From assembly GCA_032595685.2 (NCBI GenBank), contig CP159373.1, positions 1,385,001 to 1,449,000 on the forward strand: a stretch of DNA of 64,000 nt. The letters are read 5' to 3'. A program made the position numbers and the translations under genes. The DNA is from Candidatus Electrothrix aestuarii. Its GTDB lineage: Bacteria > Desulfobacterota > Desulfobulbia > Desulfobulbales > Desulfobulbaceae. Of the stretch, positions 1,210 to 7,930 are shown piece after piece (within the stretch, counting starts at the first letter, position 1; every line of letters begins with the position of its first letter). Under the pieces are notes generated by a model. It was not told where the DNA came from. It searched no databases and saw nothing but the letters and a program-made list of their open reading frames with translations.

Positions 1210-3561
1210 TTAATAAGAAAAGCTCAGGGTTGCGAGAGCAAAGCGCCCTGGCCCCTTGTAATACTCGTAGTATTCCTCGTCGAGAAGGTTATCCACAGAA
1301 ACGGACAGCGCCAGATGCTCAGAGGGTCTGTAGGTCAGCTTGGCATCCATGACATAATATTCGTCATCGCCCTTATAGGAATTTTCTCCATAGGCTGCAT
1401 ACTCATCGTCATAGCGGGAGTCGCAGTAGCGATAGCTCAGGTTCAGGTCCAGATTATCGGTGAAATAATAACCGATCCAGGCGCTCCAGATATTCGTGGG
1501 CACCTCATCCACTTCCCAACCCAACTTGGAAGAATCCTTGGTCACCGTATATTCGGACCAGTTATGGGTATAGAACAGGCCGCCCCGCAGATCAGCGGTG
1601 AAAGATGCCTCCACAGCCGCCTCAATACCGTTGACCTCGGCCTCATCCGCATTGATCCTGGTTTTATCGATAACCTGCGTGCCATCAGCCAAGGTGGAGT
1701 TTTTACTGGTACTGACGATCATGTCTTCAAAATCGTTTTCAAAATAGGTCAGCTTGACCCGGACCCGTTTCTTCCAGAATTCCCATTCCGTACCCACTTC
1801 CCAGGAGGTATTGGTCTCCGGTTTCAGATCTGGATTAGGGCTGGCCATAGAGATAGTTCCACCCCCTTCCCAGTAATAGCTTGAGGTTCGGTAGTACAGC
1901 GAGGGCGCTGTAAAGGATTGGCCATAGGAGGCCCGCACAGTACCGTTCTCCAGGGGATGATAGACCACAGAAGCCTTGGGGCTGAACTGGCCGTCATCGG
2001 TATCTGGATGTTGGGTATAATATTCTCCAGAGAGGCTGGAGTAATAATCCGCATCACTACCCCACCAATGGTCATATCGACCGCCGAGATAGAGAGTCAG
2101 CGGATCAAGCGGGGAATATTCAGCCTGAACAAAGGTGCCCAGGGTCTGATTGGTGCCGTTGGTTTTTTCCCGAGTGGAAATAATGCTGTCCTCGTCCGAG
2201 GCGTTAGAGAGATTGCTGTCCGTTACCGTTGCCTCTTCCTGTACGCCCTGAGTGCCCACGGTCAGGAGCAAGCTGTCTGAAAGCAAATGAAAGGTGGCGG
2301 TCAGGTCAGCCTGAGTCAGGGAGCTGTCCTCTGCTTTATAGCGGCTACTGCTCTCATAATGGGTGCCAGCCTCCTTATCGTTGAATCCGACCATCATTGT
2401 CAGGTCAAGTAAATCAGGGACGGTATGATCAATGTGCAGGCTATGCACCAGGGACTCTTTTTCTTTGGTATCTGAGGTAAAAAGAGAGGGGCTCAGGCTT
2501 ACCAGGGAAGTCTTACCGCCGTCCTGAATATAGACATCTCCCTCATAGACTGCATTGCCCGAGGAATCGCGGAGGAGGCTTGTCCCGTCCTCCCAGCCAT
2601 ATTCAAATTTGCTGGCACTCAGACTGTACCAAAGGCGAGTGTTCTCAGAAAAATCATAGCCTGTCTTGATAAAGACACCGTAATCTTCATACCAGTTATT
2701 GCCCTGATCACCAATCTTATAACGGGTCTTACCGGTCTGCGGATCAATGTCTTTTTCCCAACCCGTTACTACGGGAATGGATGAATCAGCCGCTCCTTCT
2801 ATAGAACTTAGGCTCTTATAAGAGGGTGTGGTAACGTAGCTGTCCGAGGTTCTGGATTTAAAGCTGAAAGAGTAAAAGAAGCGCTGGCCAAGCACGCGGT
2901 CAGCCCATGATGCTTCATCAATGCCTTCTTCGGATTTGCCAAAGGGACGATCAGCAAAGTGGAAGCTGTAGAAACGGCTGTTCCAGTCCCCAAAAGAAAC
3001 TGAGGCGTCTATCTCCTGGCCTTCCGGGATCCTGGTTGTGTAGCTGACCACAGCGGTCTGAGCCATTGTGCCATACAGGGCGGAAAACGGCCCCCGCACT
3101 ACGTCCACTTTTTCCAGATCAGACATGGGAACAGCTGCGGTATCCACATAATACCCGTAATCGTACCAGTTCATACCGTCGACCTGCATCAGGGCTCTTC
3201 TGCCCCTGACCATCGGACGAGCCCAGTAATCAGCCAGTCCCCTGTATTGCCTTGCCCAGACGCCCTCAGTGAGATGTAGTACCTTGAAGGGGTGCTCAGC
3301 ACTAAAGGCATTGATCTGCTCTTCTGTAATCACAGAGACACTACCCGGAGCATCCAGGAGTTTTTTCGGGGTCTTGGTGGCAATAACTGTGACCGGCTCC
3401 AGCTCATAGGTCTTTTGTTGCTCTACCTGCTGCTCTGTCTGCTGTTCTGTCTGCTGTTCTGCTGTTGCAGCACTCTCTTCCCCCTGGGCTGGCAGAATAC
3501 AGGTCAGGGGAATAAGGGCCATCGAAGTGCAGTAGAGTGAAAGTTTCCAAGGGGGTATCAT
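1210..3561 (-). CDS. TonB-dependent outer-membrane receptor (metallophore/cobalamin type)
   Basis: The product is 783 aa. It has a signal peptide (about residues 1-27), a Gln-rich linker with repeated EQQ units (about residues 36-50), a TonB-box-like EPVTVIATK and a plug domain with VDVVRGPFSALYG. A 22-strand-type barrel follows and ends in the aromatic LATLSFSY. Receptors of this family import chelated metals or vitamin B12 across the outer membrane using TonB energy. Its start overlaps the end of the upstream nicotianamine-synthase-like gene by 4 bp (ATGA), indicating translational coupling. By analogy with the pseudopaline locus, where receptor and synthase genes are co-transcribed, it probably takes up a nicotianamine-like metal complex. 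The ligand is inferred. Confidence 0.93.
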   Translation of the reverse strand: MIPPWKLSLYCTSMALIPLTCILPAQGEESAATAEQQTEQQTEQQVEQQKTYELEPVTVIATKTPKKLLDAPGSVSVITEEQINAFSAEHPFKVLHLTEGVWARQYRGLADYWARPMVRGRRALMQVDGMNWYDYGYYVDTAAVPMSDLEKVDVVRGPFSALYGTMAQTAVVSYTTRIPEGQEIDASVSFGDWNSRFYSFHFADRPFGKSEEGIDEASWADRVLGQRFFYSFSFKSRTSDSYVTTPSYKSLSSIEGAADSSIPVVTGWEKDIDPQTGKTRYKIGDQGNNWYEDYGVFIKTGYDFSENTRLWYSLSASKFEYGWEDGTSLLRDSSGNAVYEGDVYIQDGGKTSLVSLSPSLFTSDTKEKESLVHSLHIDHTVPDLLDLTMMVGFNDKEAGTHYESSSRYKAEDSSLTQADLTATFHLLSDSLLLTVGTQGVQEEATVTDSNLSNASDEDSIISTREKTNGTNQTLGTFVQAEYSPLDPLTLYLGGRYDHWWGSDADYYSSLSGEYYTQHPDTDDGQFSPKASVVYHPLENGTVRASYGQSFTAPSLYYRTSSYYWEGGGTISMASPNPDLKPETNTSWEVGTEWEFWKKRVRVKLTYFENDFEDMIVSTSKNSTLADGTQVIDKTRINADEAEVNGIEAAVEASFTADLRGGLFYTHNWSEYTVTKDSSKLGWEVDEVPTNIWSAWIGYYFTDNLDLNLSYRYCDSRYDDEYAAYGENSYKGDDEYYVMDAKLTYRPSEHLALSVSVDNLLDEEYYEYYKGPGRFALATLSFSY

Positions 3562-4415
3562 AAAGTTTCTCCAAAAAAATAAAACGGATGGTCAGCAGGA
3601 TGCTTCCTGACCATGACAACGGTATTATTCACTGGTGGTCGCGGGGGGATGCGACAATGGCGAGAGAAGGCATCCGGGAGGAGAAAGTCTTCCTCCTGAT
3701 CCAGAATTCTCCGTAGCCCCTTTTCATAGAGCCGATAGGACACAAGACTGTCTGCGGGCAGAATCCGGGCAAGACGGCGGAAGATCTCCTGCTTAGGCCG
3801 AGCCATAGCCGCGACCATGACTAATTTACAGTCCACCATCTTGCTTTCTTTGTGCAAAGTAAAATGATCGCCTACAAGGATGCTGATCTGCTCCTGCATT
3901 CCCAGATGCTCCAGCAAATGCCGGGAAAATTCAGCAGAGTCCTGATCTCGCTCAATCCCCAGACCATTGAGTCCGTATTCGGAACAGAGCAGGATCAGAG
4001 AAAGGGGCAAGGGACCTGAGCCGAGAAAAATGACCCGGTCACCTGGCTGAAGGTTTGCCCCCTGTTGCTCTGTCGCAGCCAGCTGCACATAATTCGGGTA
4101 AAAGGTGAATCCCTGTATTGCTTGCCAGGGATGAGAGTTTTCCAGGAGGGAGCGGGCCTGCTGAATCTCCAGGCGGAGGCTGTAGAGATTACGCAAACGG
4201 CTGATCTCTGGCAGCACCGAAGCCAGCTCCTGGGCATAGAGGAGTCGCTCCACAATCTCCGGTTCCACATCCTGCGCTGCCAGAATGTCCAGCTCTCGAA
4301 AAAGCGGGTCAAGGACAGTTGCATCTCCCTGAAGGATCTCTTCATCGCGCAGGGGACGTACAGACTCAGAGATACGGGCCAGCGTAGCAGCAAGTTCCGT
4401 GTAATCAGGTATCAT
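3558..4415 (-). CDS. Nicotianamine synthase-like protein (CntL/NAS family), copy A
   Basis: The product is 285 aa. An N-terminal helical half is followed by a Rossmann-like SAM-binding half with IFLGSGPLPLSLILL (GSGPLPLS at residues 132-139), the diagnostic glycine/proline loop of nicotianamine synthases. FYPNYVQL at about 105-112, VMVAAMA near 205 and NNTVVMVRK near the C terminus match conserved NAS positions. NAS enzymes move aminobutyrate groups from SAM to an amino acid or to each other, making nicotianamine, staphylopine or pseudopaline precursors. The gene overlaps both neighbours by 4 bp (another NAS-like gene upstream, a TonB receptor downstream). No opine dehydrogenase (CntM-like) gene is visible, so the product may be nicotianamine-like rather than an opine. 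The family call is firm; the product is inference. Confidence 0.82.
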   Translation of the reverse strand: MIPDYTELAATLARISESVRPLRDEEILQGDATVLDPLFRELDILAAQDVEPEIVERLLYAQELASVLPEISRLRNLYSLRLEIQQARSLLENSHPWQAIQGFTFYPNYVQLAATEQQGANLQPGDRVIFLGSGPLPLSLILLCSEYGLNGLGIERDQDSAEFSRHLLEHLGMQEQISILVGDHFTLHKESKMVDCKLVMVAAMARPKQEIFRRLARILPADSLVSYRLYEKGLRRILDQEEDFLLPDAFSRHCRIPPRPPVNNTVVMVRKHPADHPFYFFGETL

Positions 4416-5296
4416 CCATTCATCTCCAGCTGAAGCAGCGTATTATTTACTCTGTTGTTTTCCGGCCTGATCTCCTGATGAACACGAAAGCCCATATAGT
4501 CCTCCTCCCGTAGAGGGGGATGAAGCAGAGTCAAGAGACCAGAATAGGTCCGACAGATTACAGGTCGTTTTTGGCTGGCCTTCATAATTCGGTACAGACT
4601 GGCAAAAATCTTGCGTTTCGGTTCAGCCAGTGCCGCAACCACCACCACATCCCAGTCCAGAGCGGCAAGCATCTCTTCTGTCCCCTGAAGGATAGAAATC
4701 TCCTGATCAAGTTCCAGGCGCTCAAGACATTGCCGGGCCAAAGAAACTGCCTTAGGGTCAATATCCAAACCAATAGAGCTGATGCCATAGAGACGGTTGA
4801 GCAGGATGAGGGAAAGCGGCATGGGGCCGCAGCCTATAAAAACCAACTTTTGCGGGCGGGGTAGATCAAGCTGCTCCATCTGGGTGCGGATCAGTGTTTC
4901 GTAGCGGGGATACAGGCCGAAAAACTGCAGGGGCTGCCAGGGATCATCAGCGGCCAAAACCTCATGGACCAGATAGGTCTCATGCACCTCGAAGAAGGTA
5001 TTATAATACCAACGAATATCCGGCAGGATCTCCTGGATCTCTGCACTGGCCAGGATACGCTCAGCCAAGTGCGAGCCGCATTCGAGATGGGCAATATCAT
5101 CCAGAATCAAATAGAGCTGATAGATATCCTGCTGGGAAAGTTGGCGAAGCTCTTGCTGACTATAGCCGCTGAGTTGCGTATGAAAGTCCCGGAGCCGCTC
5201 CGATACCAGGTGATAACTGCGTTCACAGTCCCGGCAACAGTTCACAAAGGCCTGGTCTGTCAGGCTATGTTCATGGGAAAAAGGAAAAACATGCAT
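4412..5296 (-). CDS. Nicotianamine synthase-like protein (CntL/NAS family), copy B
   Basis: The product is 294 aa with the same two-part build as the downstream copy. It has LVFIGCGPMPLSLILL (GCGPMPLS at 155-162), YPRYETLIRTQ at about 129-139, VVVVAALAEPKRK at the NAS acceptor-pocket position and NNTLLQLEM near the C terminus. It is clearly diverged from copy A, so the two are old paralogues rather than a recent duplication. The N-terminal 90 residues contain several Cys and His residues (CCRDC at 20-24). The two enzymes could act in sequence, form a heteromer, or use different amino-acid acceptors. The gene begins 4 bp after the ABC ATPase gene and overlaps copy A by 4 bp, forming a tight operon. 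Confidence 0.82.
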   Translation of the reverse strand: MHVFPFSHEHSLTDQAFVNCCRDCERSYHLVSERLRDFHTQLSGYSQQELRQLSQQDIYQLYLILDDIAHLECGSHLAERILASAEIQEILPDIRWYYNTFFEVHETYLVHEVLAADDPWQPLQFFGLYPRYETLIRTQMEQLDLPRPQKLVFIGCGPMPLSLILLNRLYGISSIGLDIDPKAVSLARQCLERLELDQEISILQGTEEMLAALDWDVVVVAALAEPKRKIFASLYRIMKASQKRPVICRTYSGLLTLLHPPLREEDYMGFRVHQEIRPENNRVNNTLLQLEMNG

Positions 5297-5299
5297 AGC

Positions 5300-6106
5300 T
5301 CAGGATAATTCAGCGTTTTCCGGTAAAGACTGAACATTGTTAAGATGGGCGTGCGGCTGCCTGCCATAGGGGTGGGAGTGACGGTGATCATGGAGATAGG
5401 AGAGATCGTTCATTGTCACCTGCCCCAGGTCCATCGCGCAAACTTCATAACAGGTGTCAGCCAGCAAACTCCAGTCATGGGAGATAATCAGCAAAGCCAG
5501 ATCCAACCCGTTCATGACCTCAATCAAGCGGGAGCGGGTTGCCGCATCGAGATTATTGGTGGGTTCATCCAGAAGCAAGGCATCCGGGCGCATGGCCAGG
5601 ATAGTTGCCAAAGACACCATCTTCTTTTCCCCGCCGGAAAGCTGATGGGTAATCCGCTGTTCAAGGTGCTCCAATTTAAGCTCGTAGAGGGTCTGACGGG
5701 CTATTTCCCTGGCCTCTTGTGGGGTTGCACCAAAATTGAGCGGTCCAAAGGCCACATCCTCCAGCACGGTCGGAGAAAAGAGCTGATCATCAGAGTCCTG
5801 AAAAAGGAGCCCCACCTTCCGGCGCAGTTTTCTGAAATCCTCCTTATCATGCATCTCTTCCCCGTTAAACAGCACCAGGCCTGATTCCGGTTTAAGTAGC
5901 CCCATAATAACATGGAAGAGCGAGGTCTTACCAGAACCGTTCGGCCCGACCAGACCCACGCGCTGCTGCCTTTCCAGAAAAAAATTAATTCCTTGTAACA
6001 GCTGCAAATCTGTCCCCGGATAATGAAAACAGATGTCCCGTAATTCTATTAAATGTGGCCTGCTGTCGAATTTTTTTTCCGGTTGCATAGCATTATTGAT
6101 CAGCAT
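5300..6106 (-). CDS. Energy-coupling-factor/CbiO-like metal transporter ATP-binding protein
   Basis: The product is 268 aa. It has Walker A GPNGSGKTS (54-62), Q-loop FQDSDDQLF (102-110), signature LSGGEKK (156-162), Walker B LLLDEP (177-182) and switch His210. The FQDSDDQLFSPTVLEDVAFGPLN stretch is characteristic of CbiO/NikO-type ATPases of cobalt/nickel ECF transporters. A His-rich tail (HDHRHSHPYGRQPHAH, from about residue 239) is likely metal-binding. No CbiM/CbiQ-type membrane genes are adjacent in the window, so its permease partner is unknown. It heads the tight operon that continues with the two NAS-like genes and the TonB receptor. Confidence 0.88.
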   Translation of the reverse strand: MLINNAMQPEKKFDSRPHLIELRDICFHYPGTDLQLLQGINFFLERQQRVGLVGPNGSGKTSLFHVIMGLLKPESGLVLFNGEEMHDKEDFRKLRRKVGLLFQDSDDQLFSPTVLEDVAFGPLNFGATPQEAREIARQTLYELKLEHLEQRITHQLSGGEKKMVSLATILAMRPDALLLDEPTNNLDAATRSRLIEVMNGLDLALLIISHDWSLLADTCYEVCAMDLGQVTMNDLSYLHDHRHSHPYGRQPHAHLNNVQSLPENAELS

Positions 6107-6487: not shown

Positions 6488-7498
6488 CTAAAACCAGATA
6501 CTTTTAACAGAGTGGAACATGGTATAGGATCCTATTCCTATAATCAGTAAGGCGCTGACGAGGCCCATACGCCGGGCAAAGTCGAGGTTTTCACTAATCT
6601 TCCCGGTCAGACGTCCAGCCTGAGACAGAATCACGCCTATACTCATCATAACCAACCCCAATCCCAAACTGAAAAACAAGGTTACGCTTAGCCCTTGCGC
6701 GATCTTACCGGCCGCAATAGCAGCTAATAAGGTGGCGATGGCTGCCGGGCAAGGGATGATACCGCCGGAAATTCCCAGCATCAAGAGTTCCCAGGGATTT
6801 TTTTTGCCACTCGCGTGTTCATGATGTGTATGTCCCTTTTCGCTATGATTATGACTATCATGCTTACCATGACTATGATGACTATGATGGCTGTGTTCAT
6901 GGTAGCCATCATGCTCGTGATCATGGGTATGGGGATGATGATGCTCGTGGGTGTGTTCATGCTCGTCAGAAGTATGAGCATGATCGTGGTCATGAGTATG
7001 TTTGTGGGAATGATGGTCTTGATGGCTATGACTATGTTCATGTTCGTCATGAGAGTGCTCATCATGGCTATGCGAATGACCATGCTGGTCATGTGAATAT
7101 CCATCATGAGTATGCAGATGGGTGTGGGGATGATGATGCTCATGACTGTGCCCTTTCCCAAAGAGATGGATATGGGTATGACCACTCTTGCCGGAAAGCC
7201 GCTGCCGGAGCATCCAGAGCCCCACCGCCAGGATAATCCCGGCGGAGACTAAACCGAGCCAGTTATGCAGTGTTTCCTCTGAATAGGTTCTGGACAAAAT
7301 TTGCGCCACAAGGCCCAGTAAAATAACACTGAAGGTGTGGGTAATGGTCACAATTGCCCCAAGCAGCATACCATCCCAAGCCCGCCCCCTTGTACCTATC
7401 ATATAGGCGGCAATAAGCGTTTTTCCGTGGCCGGGTTCAAAGGCATGCAAGGCACCAAGTGTTGCTGCTCCCGAATAGAGCATAAGGAGGTTGGTCAT
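6488..7498 (-). CDS. NicO-family nickel/cobalt permease with a very long His-rich loop
   Basis: The product is 336 aa from the preferred start. N-terminal helices contain HAFEPGHGKT (18-27) and a C-terminal half has GGIIPCPAA. Both are NicO/RcnA/HupE-type metal-transport motifs, so this is an inner-membrane Ni2+/Co2+ transporter. Between them, about residues 106-236 are a low-complexity loop made mostly of His, Asp, Glu and Ser (HSHEHHHPHTH and similar), much longer than the usual His loop, and probably binding metal. An in-frame ATG at 7600 would add 34 residues, but an AGGAAG ribosome site precedes the ATG at 7498 and the usual family N terminus begins there. It could be importer or exporter; the surrounding uptake genes favour import. 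Confidence 0.88.
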   Translation of the reverse strand: MTNLLMLYSGAATLGALHAFEPGHGKTLIAAYMIGTRGRAWDGMLLGAIVTITHTFSVILLGLVAQILSRTYSEETLHNWLGLVSAGIILAVGLWMLRQRLSGKSGHTHIHLFGKGHSHEHHHPHTHLHTHDGYSHDQHGHSHSHDEHSHDEHEHSHSHQDHHSHKHTHDHDHAHTSDEHEHTHEHHHPHTHDHEHDGYHEHSHHSHHSHGKHDSHNHSEKGHTHHEHASGKKNPWELLMLGISGGIIPCPAAIATLLAAIAAGKIAQGLSVTLFFSLGLGLVMMSIGVILSQAGRLTGKISENLDFARRMGLVSALLIIGIGSYTMFHSVKSIWF

Positions 7499-7930
7499 AA
7501 TACTTCCTGTTCCTTTCATGGTTGATAGTAATAAATGCAGATCGATAAAATTCCTATCAACCATATTTGCACCGCCCGTACAATGAGGCGTATACCTCAT
7601 TTTTGCAGGAATAATCCCCAGGGGTAATAGGTTTCCTTCAAAAAGAATCCCTCCAACAGAACACCATCCACCTGATATACCTTCCTTTCAAAGGCATCCG
7701 AAGAGCTGGAATTCTTCCAGTCTGTTCTGGGACCTGATCTTCTAAAAATATCTTAAAAAGGTTGAGCAACAATGACTATACAGATGAGGATACAGCTATA
7801 GAAAAGAGAGGATTACTTAAAATGAAAATATATAGTAAAAACATACAAAACAGCTTCCTGCCATATATCAAAACAAACAATAATAATCAAAAAGGAAAAT
7901 ACCTTGAAAAGATGTTACAAAATAATATAT
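7499..7930. other. Intergenic region upstream of the NicO gene
   Basis: No full gene is seen. At 7583-7600 the minus strand carries ATGAGG, a 6-bp centre, then CCTCAT, an inverted repeat suited to a dimeric regulator and lying in the NicO leader. A minus-strand frame of about 50 codons without a start codon (7597-7752, containing the peptide YQVDGVLLEGFF) reads like protein and may be a gene remnant. The stretch from 7760 to 7930 is AT-rich and shows nothing recognisable. Confidence 0.35.

Follow-up and report, generated by a model that had tools for sequence, protein, structure and literature searches.

A conserved tandem of nicotianamine-synthase-family genes linked to nickel genes in cable bacteria and other anaerobes

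In this study, a 64,000-nucleotide stretch of the Candidatus Electrothrix aestuarii genome (assembly GCA_032595685.2, contig CP159373.1, positions 1,385,001 to 1,449,000, forward strand), hereafter the window, was analyzed. Two overlapping minus-strand genes near its start encode diverged proteins of the nicotianamine synthase (NAS) family. NAS-A (4412–5296) has 294 amino acids (aa) and a GCGPMPLS loop; NAS-B (3558–4415) has 285 aa and a GSGPLPLS loop. At the junction, the stop codon of NAS-A and the start codon of NAS-B share the letters ATGA (4412–4415, minus strand), and this 4 bp overlap suggests translational coupling. The original prediction, made from the letters of the window, had described both reading frames and their overlap correctly. 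It had taken the host for an anaerobic sulfate reducer; the host is instead a cable bacterium of the genus Candidatus Electrothrix, the genus of Ca. Electrothrix gigas AU1_5. On sequence evidence, the pair is a real, conserved and nickel-linked two-synthase unit, larger than first noticed, with predicted chemistry. It suggests a little-known way of catching nickel.

Both proteins exceeded the curated cut-off of PF03059 (nicotianamine synthase, 27.1 bits), NAS-A with 76.6 bits and NAS-B with 97 bits. The best PDB match by sequence was in both cases MtNAS, the thermonicotianamine synthase of Methanothermobacter (3.9e-38 for NAS-A and 1.5e-32 for NAS-B). The AlphaFold models had mean pLDDT values of 91.1 for NAS-A and 90.7 for NAS-B. 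Foldseek also placed MtNAS (3fpe) first, with a TM-score by query length of 0.83 (E 1.5e-20) for NAS-A and 0.78 (E 5.2e-22) for NAS-B; CntL was second best for both. The identity between NAS-A and NAS-B was 34% over 236 aligned positions. The profile search and the structure comparison proposed with the original prediction thus both supported two diverged NAS-like synthases. The pair did not reach the CntL equivalog NF033601 of NCBIfam (32.9 and 42.7 bits, cut-off 350 bits).

Glu81 and Tyr107 of MtNAS facilitate deprotonation of the acceptor amine, according to the available text of PMC10491745. Their equivalents were kept in 33/33 NAS-A and 33/33 NAS-B sequences of the alignment, for which the MtNAS numbering was checked. 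In the window they are Glu106 (4979–4981) and Tyr132 (4901–4903) of NAS-A, and Glu83 (4167–4169) and Tyr109 (4089–4091) of NAS-B, all on the minus strand. The predicted activity of the pair is aminocarboxypropyl transfer from S-adenosylmethionine (SAM) with release of methylthioadenosine. By sequence and modelled fold, NAS-A and NAS-B are real NAS-family proteins. The original prediction had named loss of pocket residues in both proteins, or matches to plain methyltransferases instead of NAS, as evidence against it; neither was found. That both reading frames are ordinary SAM methyltransferases miscalled as NAS is highly improbable. NAS-A also scored 24.9 bits with PrmA (cut-off 22) and matched Methyltransf models weakly, but NAS was the top match by sequence and by fold over nearly the whole length and the NAS catalytic pair is present. 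The methyltransferase reading, already unlikely at the family level, was rejected.

Relatives of the pair were searched in genus, class and phylum sets of Thermodesulfobacteriota genomes, each including the source genome, and in a scan of named genomes. The scan finds only proteins with its two peptide patterns, and 80 of its 112 relatives were kept. In this comparison G labels denote genomes, G000 being the source genome, and L labels denote locus stretches. NAS matches were present in 3/8 genomes of the genus, 8/257 of the class (7 over the cut-off) and 10/395 of the phylum sample (6 over the cut-off). Two adjacent NAS matches were found in 6/7 class genomes over the cut-off; in the seventh, G224, the contig ends inside NAS-A. 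All 6 phylum genomes over the cut-off had two adjacent matches, the A or B type being known only for the source genome and not for the other five. Single weak matches below the cut-off occurred in 1/257 class genomes (G230) and 4/395 phylum genomes. Viral contigs gave 3 pattern matches, none of them a relative of the pair.

The comparison contained 37 NAS-A loci: 34 from the named-genome scan, and those of the source genome, G006 and G077. L029, L030 and L032 represent the same genomes as L010, G069 and G100. NAS-B was directly downstream of NAS-A in 35/37 loci (33 by a 240-bit threshold, to which L096 and L106, with NAS-A split over two frames, are added). The A/B overlap was exactly 4 bp in 25/33 pairs. 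NAS-B is cut by the contig end in L034 and L038. The two NAS-A loci without a downstream NAS-B were L033, whose contig ends inside NAS-A, and L036, from a Pirellulales-labelled contig. A chance tandem was rejected because gene order and overlap are conserved. The carriers include Desulfospira joergensenii DSM 10085, Desulfonema magnum 4be13, strain NaphS2 and Desulfosarcina cetonica, with NAS-A in two frames in the last. The archaeal carriers are contigs of metagenome-assembled genomes (MAGs) binned as Methanotrichaceae, Methanothrix, Methanosarcina and Methanoculleus, for which binning errors are possible.

A tree of 116 proteins was calculated without those shorter than 215 aa. It is unrooted and several long branches were flagged, so that deep placements are unsure. 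NAS-A formed one side of a branch in 96% of bootstrap trees, with support of 97/67 with the long row L106 and 97/97 without it. NAS-B formed a separate branch (100/100) together with 7 Methanosarcinales B-type enzymes; because of these rows, the label B by itself needed 3 changes. The MtNAS-like single enzymes formed a third branch (99/99), drawn next to NAS-A. A recent local duplication was rejected, since A and B are separate in the tree and the pair recurs across loci. The A and B distances correlated with r 0.875 in 29 of the 33 pairs, and 0/2000 permutations were as high, as expected of genes inherited together. Judged from these comparisons, many anaerobes share the pair as a conserved two-gene unit, among them sulfate reducers and some methanogenic archaea. 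As a separate observation, the Methanosarcinales-labelled contig L108 has three B-type NAS genes within 3.3 kb.

The N-terminal motif of NAS-A (H2, H8, H10, C20, C21 and C24; 5216–5296, minus strand) is a putative metal site. It was compared between 31 NAS-A rows and 10 of the single-NAS rows of the alignment. C20, C21, C24 and S27 were present in 31/31 NAS-A rows, and H2, H8 and H10 in 29/31. In the single-NAS rows, H8, H10 and C20 were present in 0/10 and C21 in 1/10, with a Cys aligned at C24 in 9/10. The AlphaFold confidence of NAS-A residues 1–10 averages 56. The Met-His start of NAS-A recalls the nickel chaperone HypA. The motif, with six conserved His/Cys in the first 24 residues of which five are rare or absent in the 10 single-NAS rows, favors an alternative in which only one of the pair is a synthase. 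The other, most likely NAS-A, would then act as its partner in metal sensing or nickel loading and would control or complete the product. At L036:795–2286, a NAS-A gene without NAS-B overlaps a NikR gene at its end, in line with such a role. However, neither NAS-A nor NAS-B shows any variation at the catalytic Glu and Tyr. A lone NAS-A (L036) and, within the DNA examined, lone B-type enzymes of Methanosarcinales (L101, L102, L104 and L107) exist, so each can probably act on its own. The partner role is considered unlikely.

Relatives of NikR, NikM/CbiM, NikL, NikK, CbiQ or RcnA at 80 bits or more were counted as nickel markers. Such markers were found at 15/37 NAS-A loci and at 0/46 other NAS loci. 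The NAS-A loci are not independent (three are from Electrothrix and several from Desulfobulbales), and the 46 control loci are mostly from Methanobacteriales, where the bacterial queries are less sensitive. In L033, L040 and L057 the marker is a single NikK- or NikL-like protein. The gene order is NikM-NikL-CbiQ-CbiO-A-B-methyltransferase-RcnA in L031 and L035, and NikK-NikM-NikL-CbiQ-CbiO-A-B in L044 (Desulfospira). It is NikR-NikM-NikL-NikK-CbiQ-CbiO-TonB-NikK-NikL-A-B in G077. The CbiO gene of L035 and G077 is spread over two frames.

The reversed NikR signal GTAACAC-N13-GTGTTAC is described for Desulfotalea psychrophila in the available text of PMC545781. It was searched in 544 kb of NAS-A loci, in shuffled sequences and in 557 kb of other NAS loci. 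The shuffles move two-letter blocks, so dinucleotide counts are not exactly kept; some stretches were in the set twice, with each reported site counted once. With at most 1 mismatch, 7 sites were found, against 0.3 in the shuffles and 0 in the other NAS loci. With two mismatches the numbers were 12, 2.8 and 4. In G077, sites with at most 1 mismatch were upstream of nikR and upstream of TonB-NikK-NikL-A-B. L032 has such sites between TonB and NAS-A and upstream of a gene of unknown function with importer genes behind it; the site of L030 is between a methyltransferase and the same gene. In the source genome, the 2 sites of this class were outside the pair operon, one upstream of another TonB receptor and one beside a transposase gene. 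In L031 and L035, sites with two mismatches lie upstream of nikM. The half-sites that started the search were first noticed in G077, so that the remaining loci are the independent cases. The nickel context claimed in the original prediction was strengthened by the NikR, NikMLKQ and NikR-type operators of these relatives.

Two side observations concern these operators. A perfect NikR-type palindrome was found upstream of another TonB receptor gene at L003:1637–4073 (G000:C1 about 1368.6–1371.1 kb). This region, about 16 kb from the window edge, contains several TonB receptors and resembles an island for metal uptake. A 200-aa protein recurs near the pair in three genomes (L022:1585–2187, L030:11526–12128 and L032:16324–16926), with NikR-type sites upstream in L030 and L032; the L022 copy had no Pfam match.

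The genes around the pair in the window are all on the minus strand. Their order is RcnA-type gene, CbiO/NikO-type ATPase, NAS-A, NAS-B, TonB receptor, methyltransferase and the start of a family-5 binding protein. The ATPase (5300–6106) and the TonB-dependent outer-membrane receptor (1210–3561, PF00593 and PF07715) flank the pair as first described. The ATPase is upstream of NAS-A with a gap of 3 bp, and the receptor gene overlaps NAS-B by 4 bp. The two 4 bp overlaps and the close ATPase gene suggest one translationally coupled unit. The best NCBIfam matches of the ATPase were cobalt and energy-coupling factor (ECF) transporter ATPases, below the cut-offs, consistent with a NikO/CbiO-type ATPase of an ECF nickel/cobalt transporter. 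The source genome has a NikR gene and, at G000:C1 about 3171.5–3174.6 kb, NikM-NikL-NikK-CbiQ genes without an ATPase gene beside them; the ATPase of the window probably serves these. No convincing NikM/L/K/Q remnant was found in the gaps next to CbiO and RcnA (best E 2.0).

The gene at 6488–7600 matched Pfam NicO (48.6 bits, cut-off 27.7), and in NCBIfam it scored best with NF007454, a model of RcnA-type nickel/cobalt efflux proteins (160.8 bits, short of the cut-off of 195). Its loop, within boundaries set by us, counts 125 residues, 55 of them His. The RcnA exporter of cable bacteria has an expanded loop of 100–123 aa with 33–53 His (available text of PMC11247825). The best model match and the similar His-rich loop indicate that the protein is probably an exporter. 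The original description as a NicO permease was therefore right in family and probably wrong in role.

Close copies of the TonB receptor (100, 99 and 82%) were found in exactly the 3/8 genus genomes with the pair. Close copies of the binding protein (96, 100 and 86% relative to the G006 copy) were found in exactly the same three. In G003 the receptor and binding protein are on another contig than the pair. The N-terminal part of this Opp/Nik-type solute-binding protein is at 1–319. The protein had been called a nickel-type binding protein; it is a family-5 solute-binding protein with the nickel Opp/NikA model as best NCBIfam match, at 272.9 bits below a cut-off of 600, and most of its gene is outside the window. 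Past the window edge, L003 contains the remainder of the binding-protein gene, genes for two Opp-type ATPases and the first half of a permease gene of NikB type. The binding protein is at L003:16745–18520, and together with the two ATPases it spans L003:14935–18520. The near relative G006 has the full operon, NikB and NikC included. Separately, an interspersed repeat at about 360–430 of the window enters the longest binding-protein reading frame (start 520, residues about 30–57). Translated short matches to this repeat were found in all 7 genus genomes that gave matches in the binding-protein search. The longest frame therefore overstates the gene.

A second Opp importer type (SBP_G100) adjoins the pair in L032 and is also present in G000, G006 (in two frames) and G002. 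G002 has no NAS match, and it could be speculated that it uses the chelators of others. A receptor gene is likewise located ahead of the pair, or of NAS-A, in G077, L030, L033 and L057.

Several accessory genes accompany the pair. The SAM methyltransferase at 429–1169 (Methyltransf_11 by Pfam profile, minus strand), a possible tailoring enzyme, has relatives at 8 other NAS-A loci, including two archaeal MAG contigs. A pyridoxal phosphate (PLP) enzyme (PF01168 and PF14031) was found at 12/37 NAS-A loci, 9 Desulfobacterales-named and 3 labelled Deltaproteobacteria. It is of the alanine-racemase/D-serine-dehydratase type (L044:10720–11829) and mostly follows NAS-B directly, lying on the other side in L034. 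By analogy with CntK, which supplies D-His, it might supply or trim a D-amino-acid starter. No homologue was found in the source genome, in a search that had no positive control. The CntM family PF10100 was not found in the source genome or in 10 other pair genomes; the control genomes also gave no match over the cut-off and one below it. The proposed absence of an opine step fits this result and is not proven by it, as the controls were silent over the cut-off. A 397-aa protein with a signal-peptide-like start (L011:138–1331, with relatives in L058 and L059) was also observed at three NAS-A loci.

We consider it fairly probable that NAS-A and NAS-B jointly make a nickel chelator that is recovered via the TonB receptor and the Opp/Nik importer. 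In this mechanism the two NAS members, both predicted to be catalytically competent, would work as one unit. Each would transfer 3-amino-3-carboxypropyl groups from SAM to an amine, with the two acting either one after the other or within a heteromer. The product would be a nicotianamine- or thermonicotianamine-like chelator made without an opine-dehydrogenase step, and the adjoining methyltransferase may finish it. In bacteria with an outer membrane, the secreted chelator would recover external nickel. The TonB receptor would carry the complex across the outer membrane, and the Opp/Nik-type binding protein and ABC importer would carry it across the inner membrane. The NikMLKQ-NikO ECF transporter would be a parallel nickel route, with RcnA as an overflow valve. 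The starter amino acid, the order of the steps and the division of labour between the two proteins also belong to this proposal, as do nickel as the metal and re-uptake. A wider reading is held only tentatively: a two-enzyme NAS unit of anaerobes, in which the His/Cys-bearing NAS-A and NAS-B act on the same molecule to make a dedicated nickel chelator, under NikR control in several lineages and feeding the conductive fibres of some cable bacteria.

Several points weigh against this chelator recovery. No nickel markers were found at 22/37 NAS-A loci, many of which are short contigs, and RcnA is the sole counted marker at the window and G006 loci. The operon of the window has no NikR operator with up to 3 mismatches. 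With three mismatches the NikR signal was not in excess (29 sites, against 40.5 in the shuffles and 47 in the other NAS loci). CbiMQO-type transporters also serve cobalt. No relative of the two TonB query proteins was found within the DNA examined at many pair loci, archaeal ones included. The source genome has nikB in two pieces separated by about 39.5 kb, at G000:C1 1378122–1378607 (L003:11122–11607) and 1338112–1338621 (L121:16112–16621), so the linked Opp importer may be dead there. A transposase-like gene of 335 aa, judged IS66-like by eye, has one copy close to each piece, and nikB is whole in G006 and G003. The pair is lacking in 5/8 genus genomes, one of them only 69% and another 89% complete. 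For this reason a direct role in the NiBiD fibre cofactor was also judged unlikely. No exporter was recognized by eye among the families in at least 3 of the 37 NAS-A loci, no whole-genome search being made; in Cnt systems the dedicated exporter is of the CntE/CntI type.

The missing exporter also favors an alternative in which the chelator is kept inside the cell to buffer or deliver nickel, like nicotianamine in plants, and the ligands of the TonB receptor and Opp importer are different ones. The pair is found in archaea-binned MAG contigs (L050, L055, L096 and L106), and archaea have no outer membrane. In Desulfospira L044 it follows NikK-NikM-NikL-CbiQ-CbiO, with no TonB-query relative in the 18.9 kb examined. 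Against this, the receptor gene of the cable bacteria overlaps NAS-B, and the four loci given above also have a receptor gene ahead of NAS-A or the pair. In the genus, receptor, binding protein and pair occur together in 3/8 genomes, and the other 5 have none of the three. A purely intracellular ligand is thus rather unlikely. The metal could also be cobalt or zinc. The CbiMQO and NikMQO families overlap, the NikM-like proteins here being CbiM by NCBIfam, and nicotianamine-like metallophores bind several divalent metals (available text of PMC13142891). NikR, NikK/NikL and RcnA at many loci, the NikR-type operators and the special nickel demand of cable bacteria (available text of PMC11247825) point to nickel, and a cobalt or zinc chelator is distinctly improbable. 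Recovery of a nickel chelator made by both enzymes remains the preferred reading.

To our knowledge, few dedicated nickel-scavenging molecules are known, and nickel acquisition by the microbes of sulfidic sediments is an open question. No report of a tandem NAS pair was found in searches of open-access text. If true, a nickel-tied two-synthase unit would add a third way of making nicotianamine-type metallophores to the one-enzyme route of plants and archaea and the route of synthase plus opine dehydrogenase.

The pair shares PF03059, the whole predicted fold and Glu81/Tyr107 with MtNAS. MtNAS differs in being a single enzyme on its own branch beside NAS-A in the unrooted tree. H8, H10 and C20 of the NAS-A motif are absent from its group, which makes up most of the 46 other NAS loci without nickel markers. 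CntL of staphylopine and pseudopaline synthesis is likewise a NAS-like aminobutyrate transferase and the second-best fold match. CntL genes are found beside an Opp-type importer in Staphylococcus or a TonB receptor in Pseudomonas. The Cnt opine metallophore system thus resembles the present locus in combining an outer-membrane receptor with an Opp/Nik-type importer, the Opp operon being complete in G006 and its nikB split in the source genome. Unlike CntL systems, the pair scores far below the CntL equivalog cut-off, has two synthases in a nickel-type context, and comes from genomes in which no CntM was found (control genomes silent over the cut-off).

The same transporter genes and the same operator as at the pair loci are described for the NikMLKQO and NikR regulon of delta-proteobacteria (PMC545781). 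NAS genes are not named in the available text of that paper, whereas the pair here is within or next to such operons. The nickel genes of cable bacteria described in the available text of PMC11247825 include RcnA with an expanded His loop and a Nik/Opp/Dpp operon with a TonB receptor, called undefined, directly upstream. The main text of that paper does not mention methyltransferase, opine or nicotianamine, and no NAS pair is described in it. According to that paper, Ca. E. gigas lacks the operon, while the pair, receptor and binding protein are all present in AU1_5, whose record carries the label E. gigas. The operon of that paper may be the second Opp type (L120/L121). The conductive fibres of cable bacteria depend on nickel (available text of PMC11247825), and the product of a nickel-tied pair would be a candidate for the ligand, so far missing, of their TonB receptor and Opp importer.

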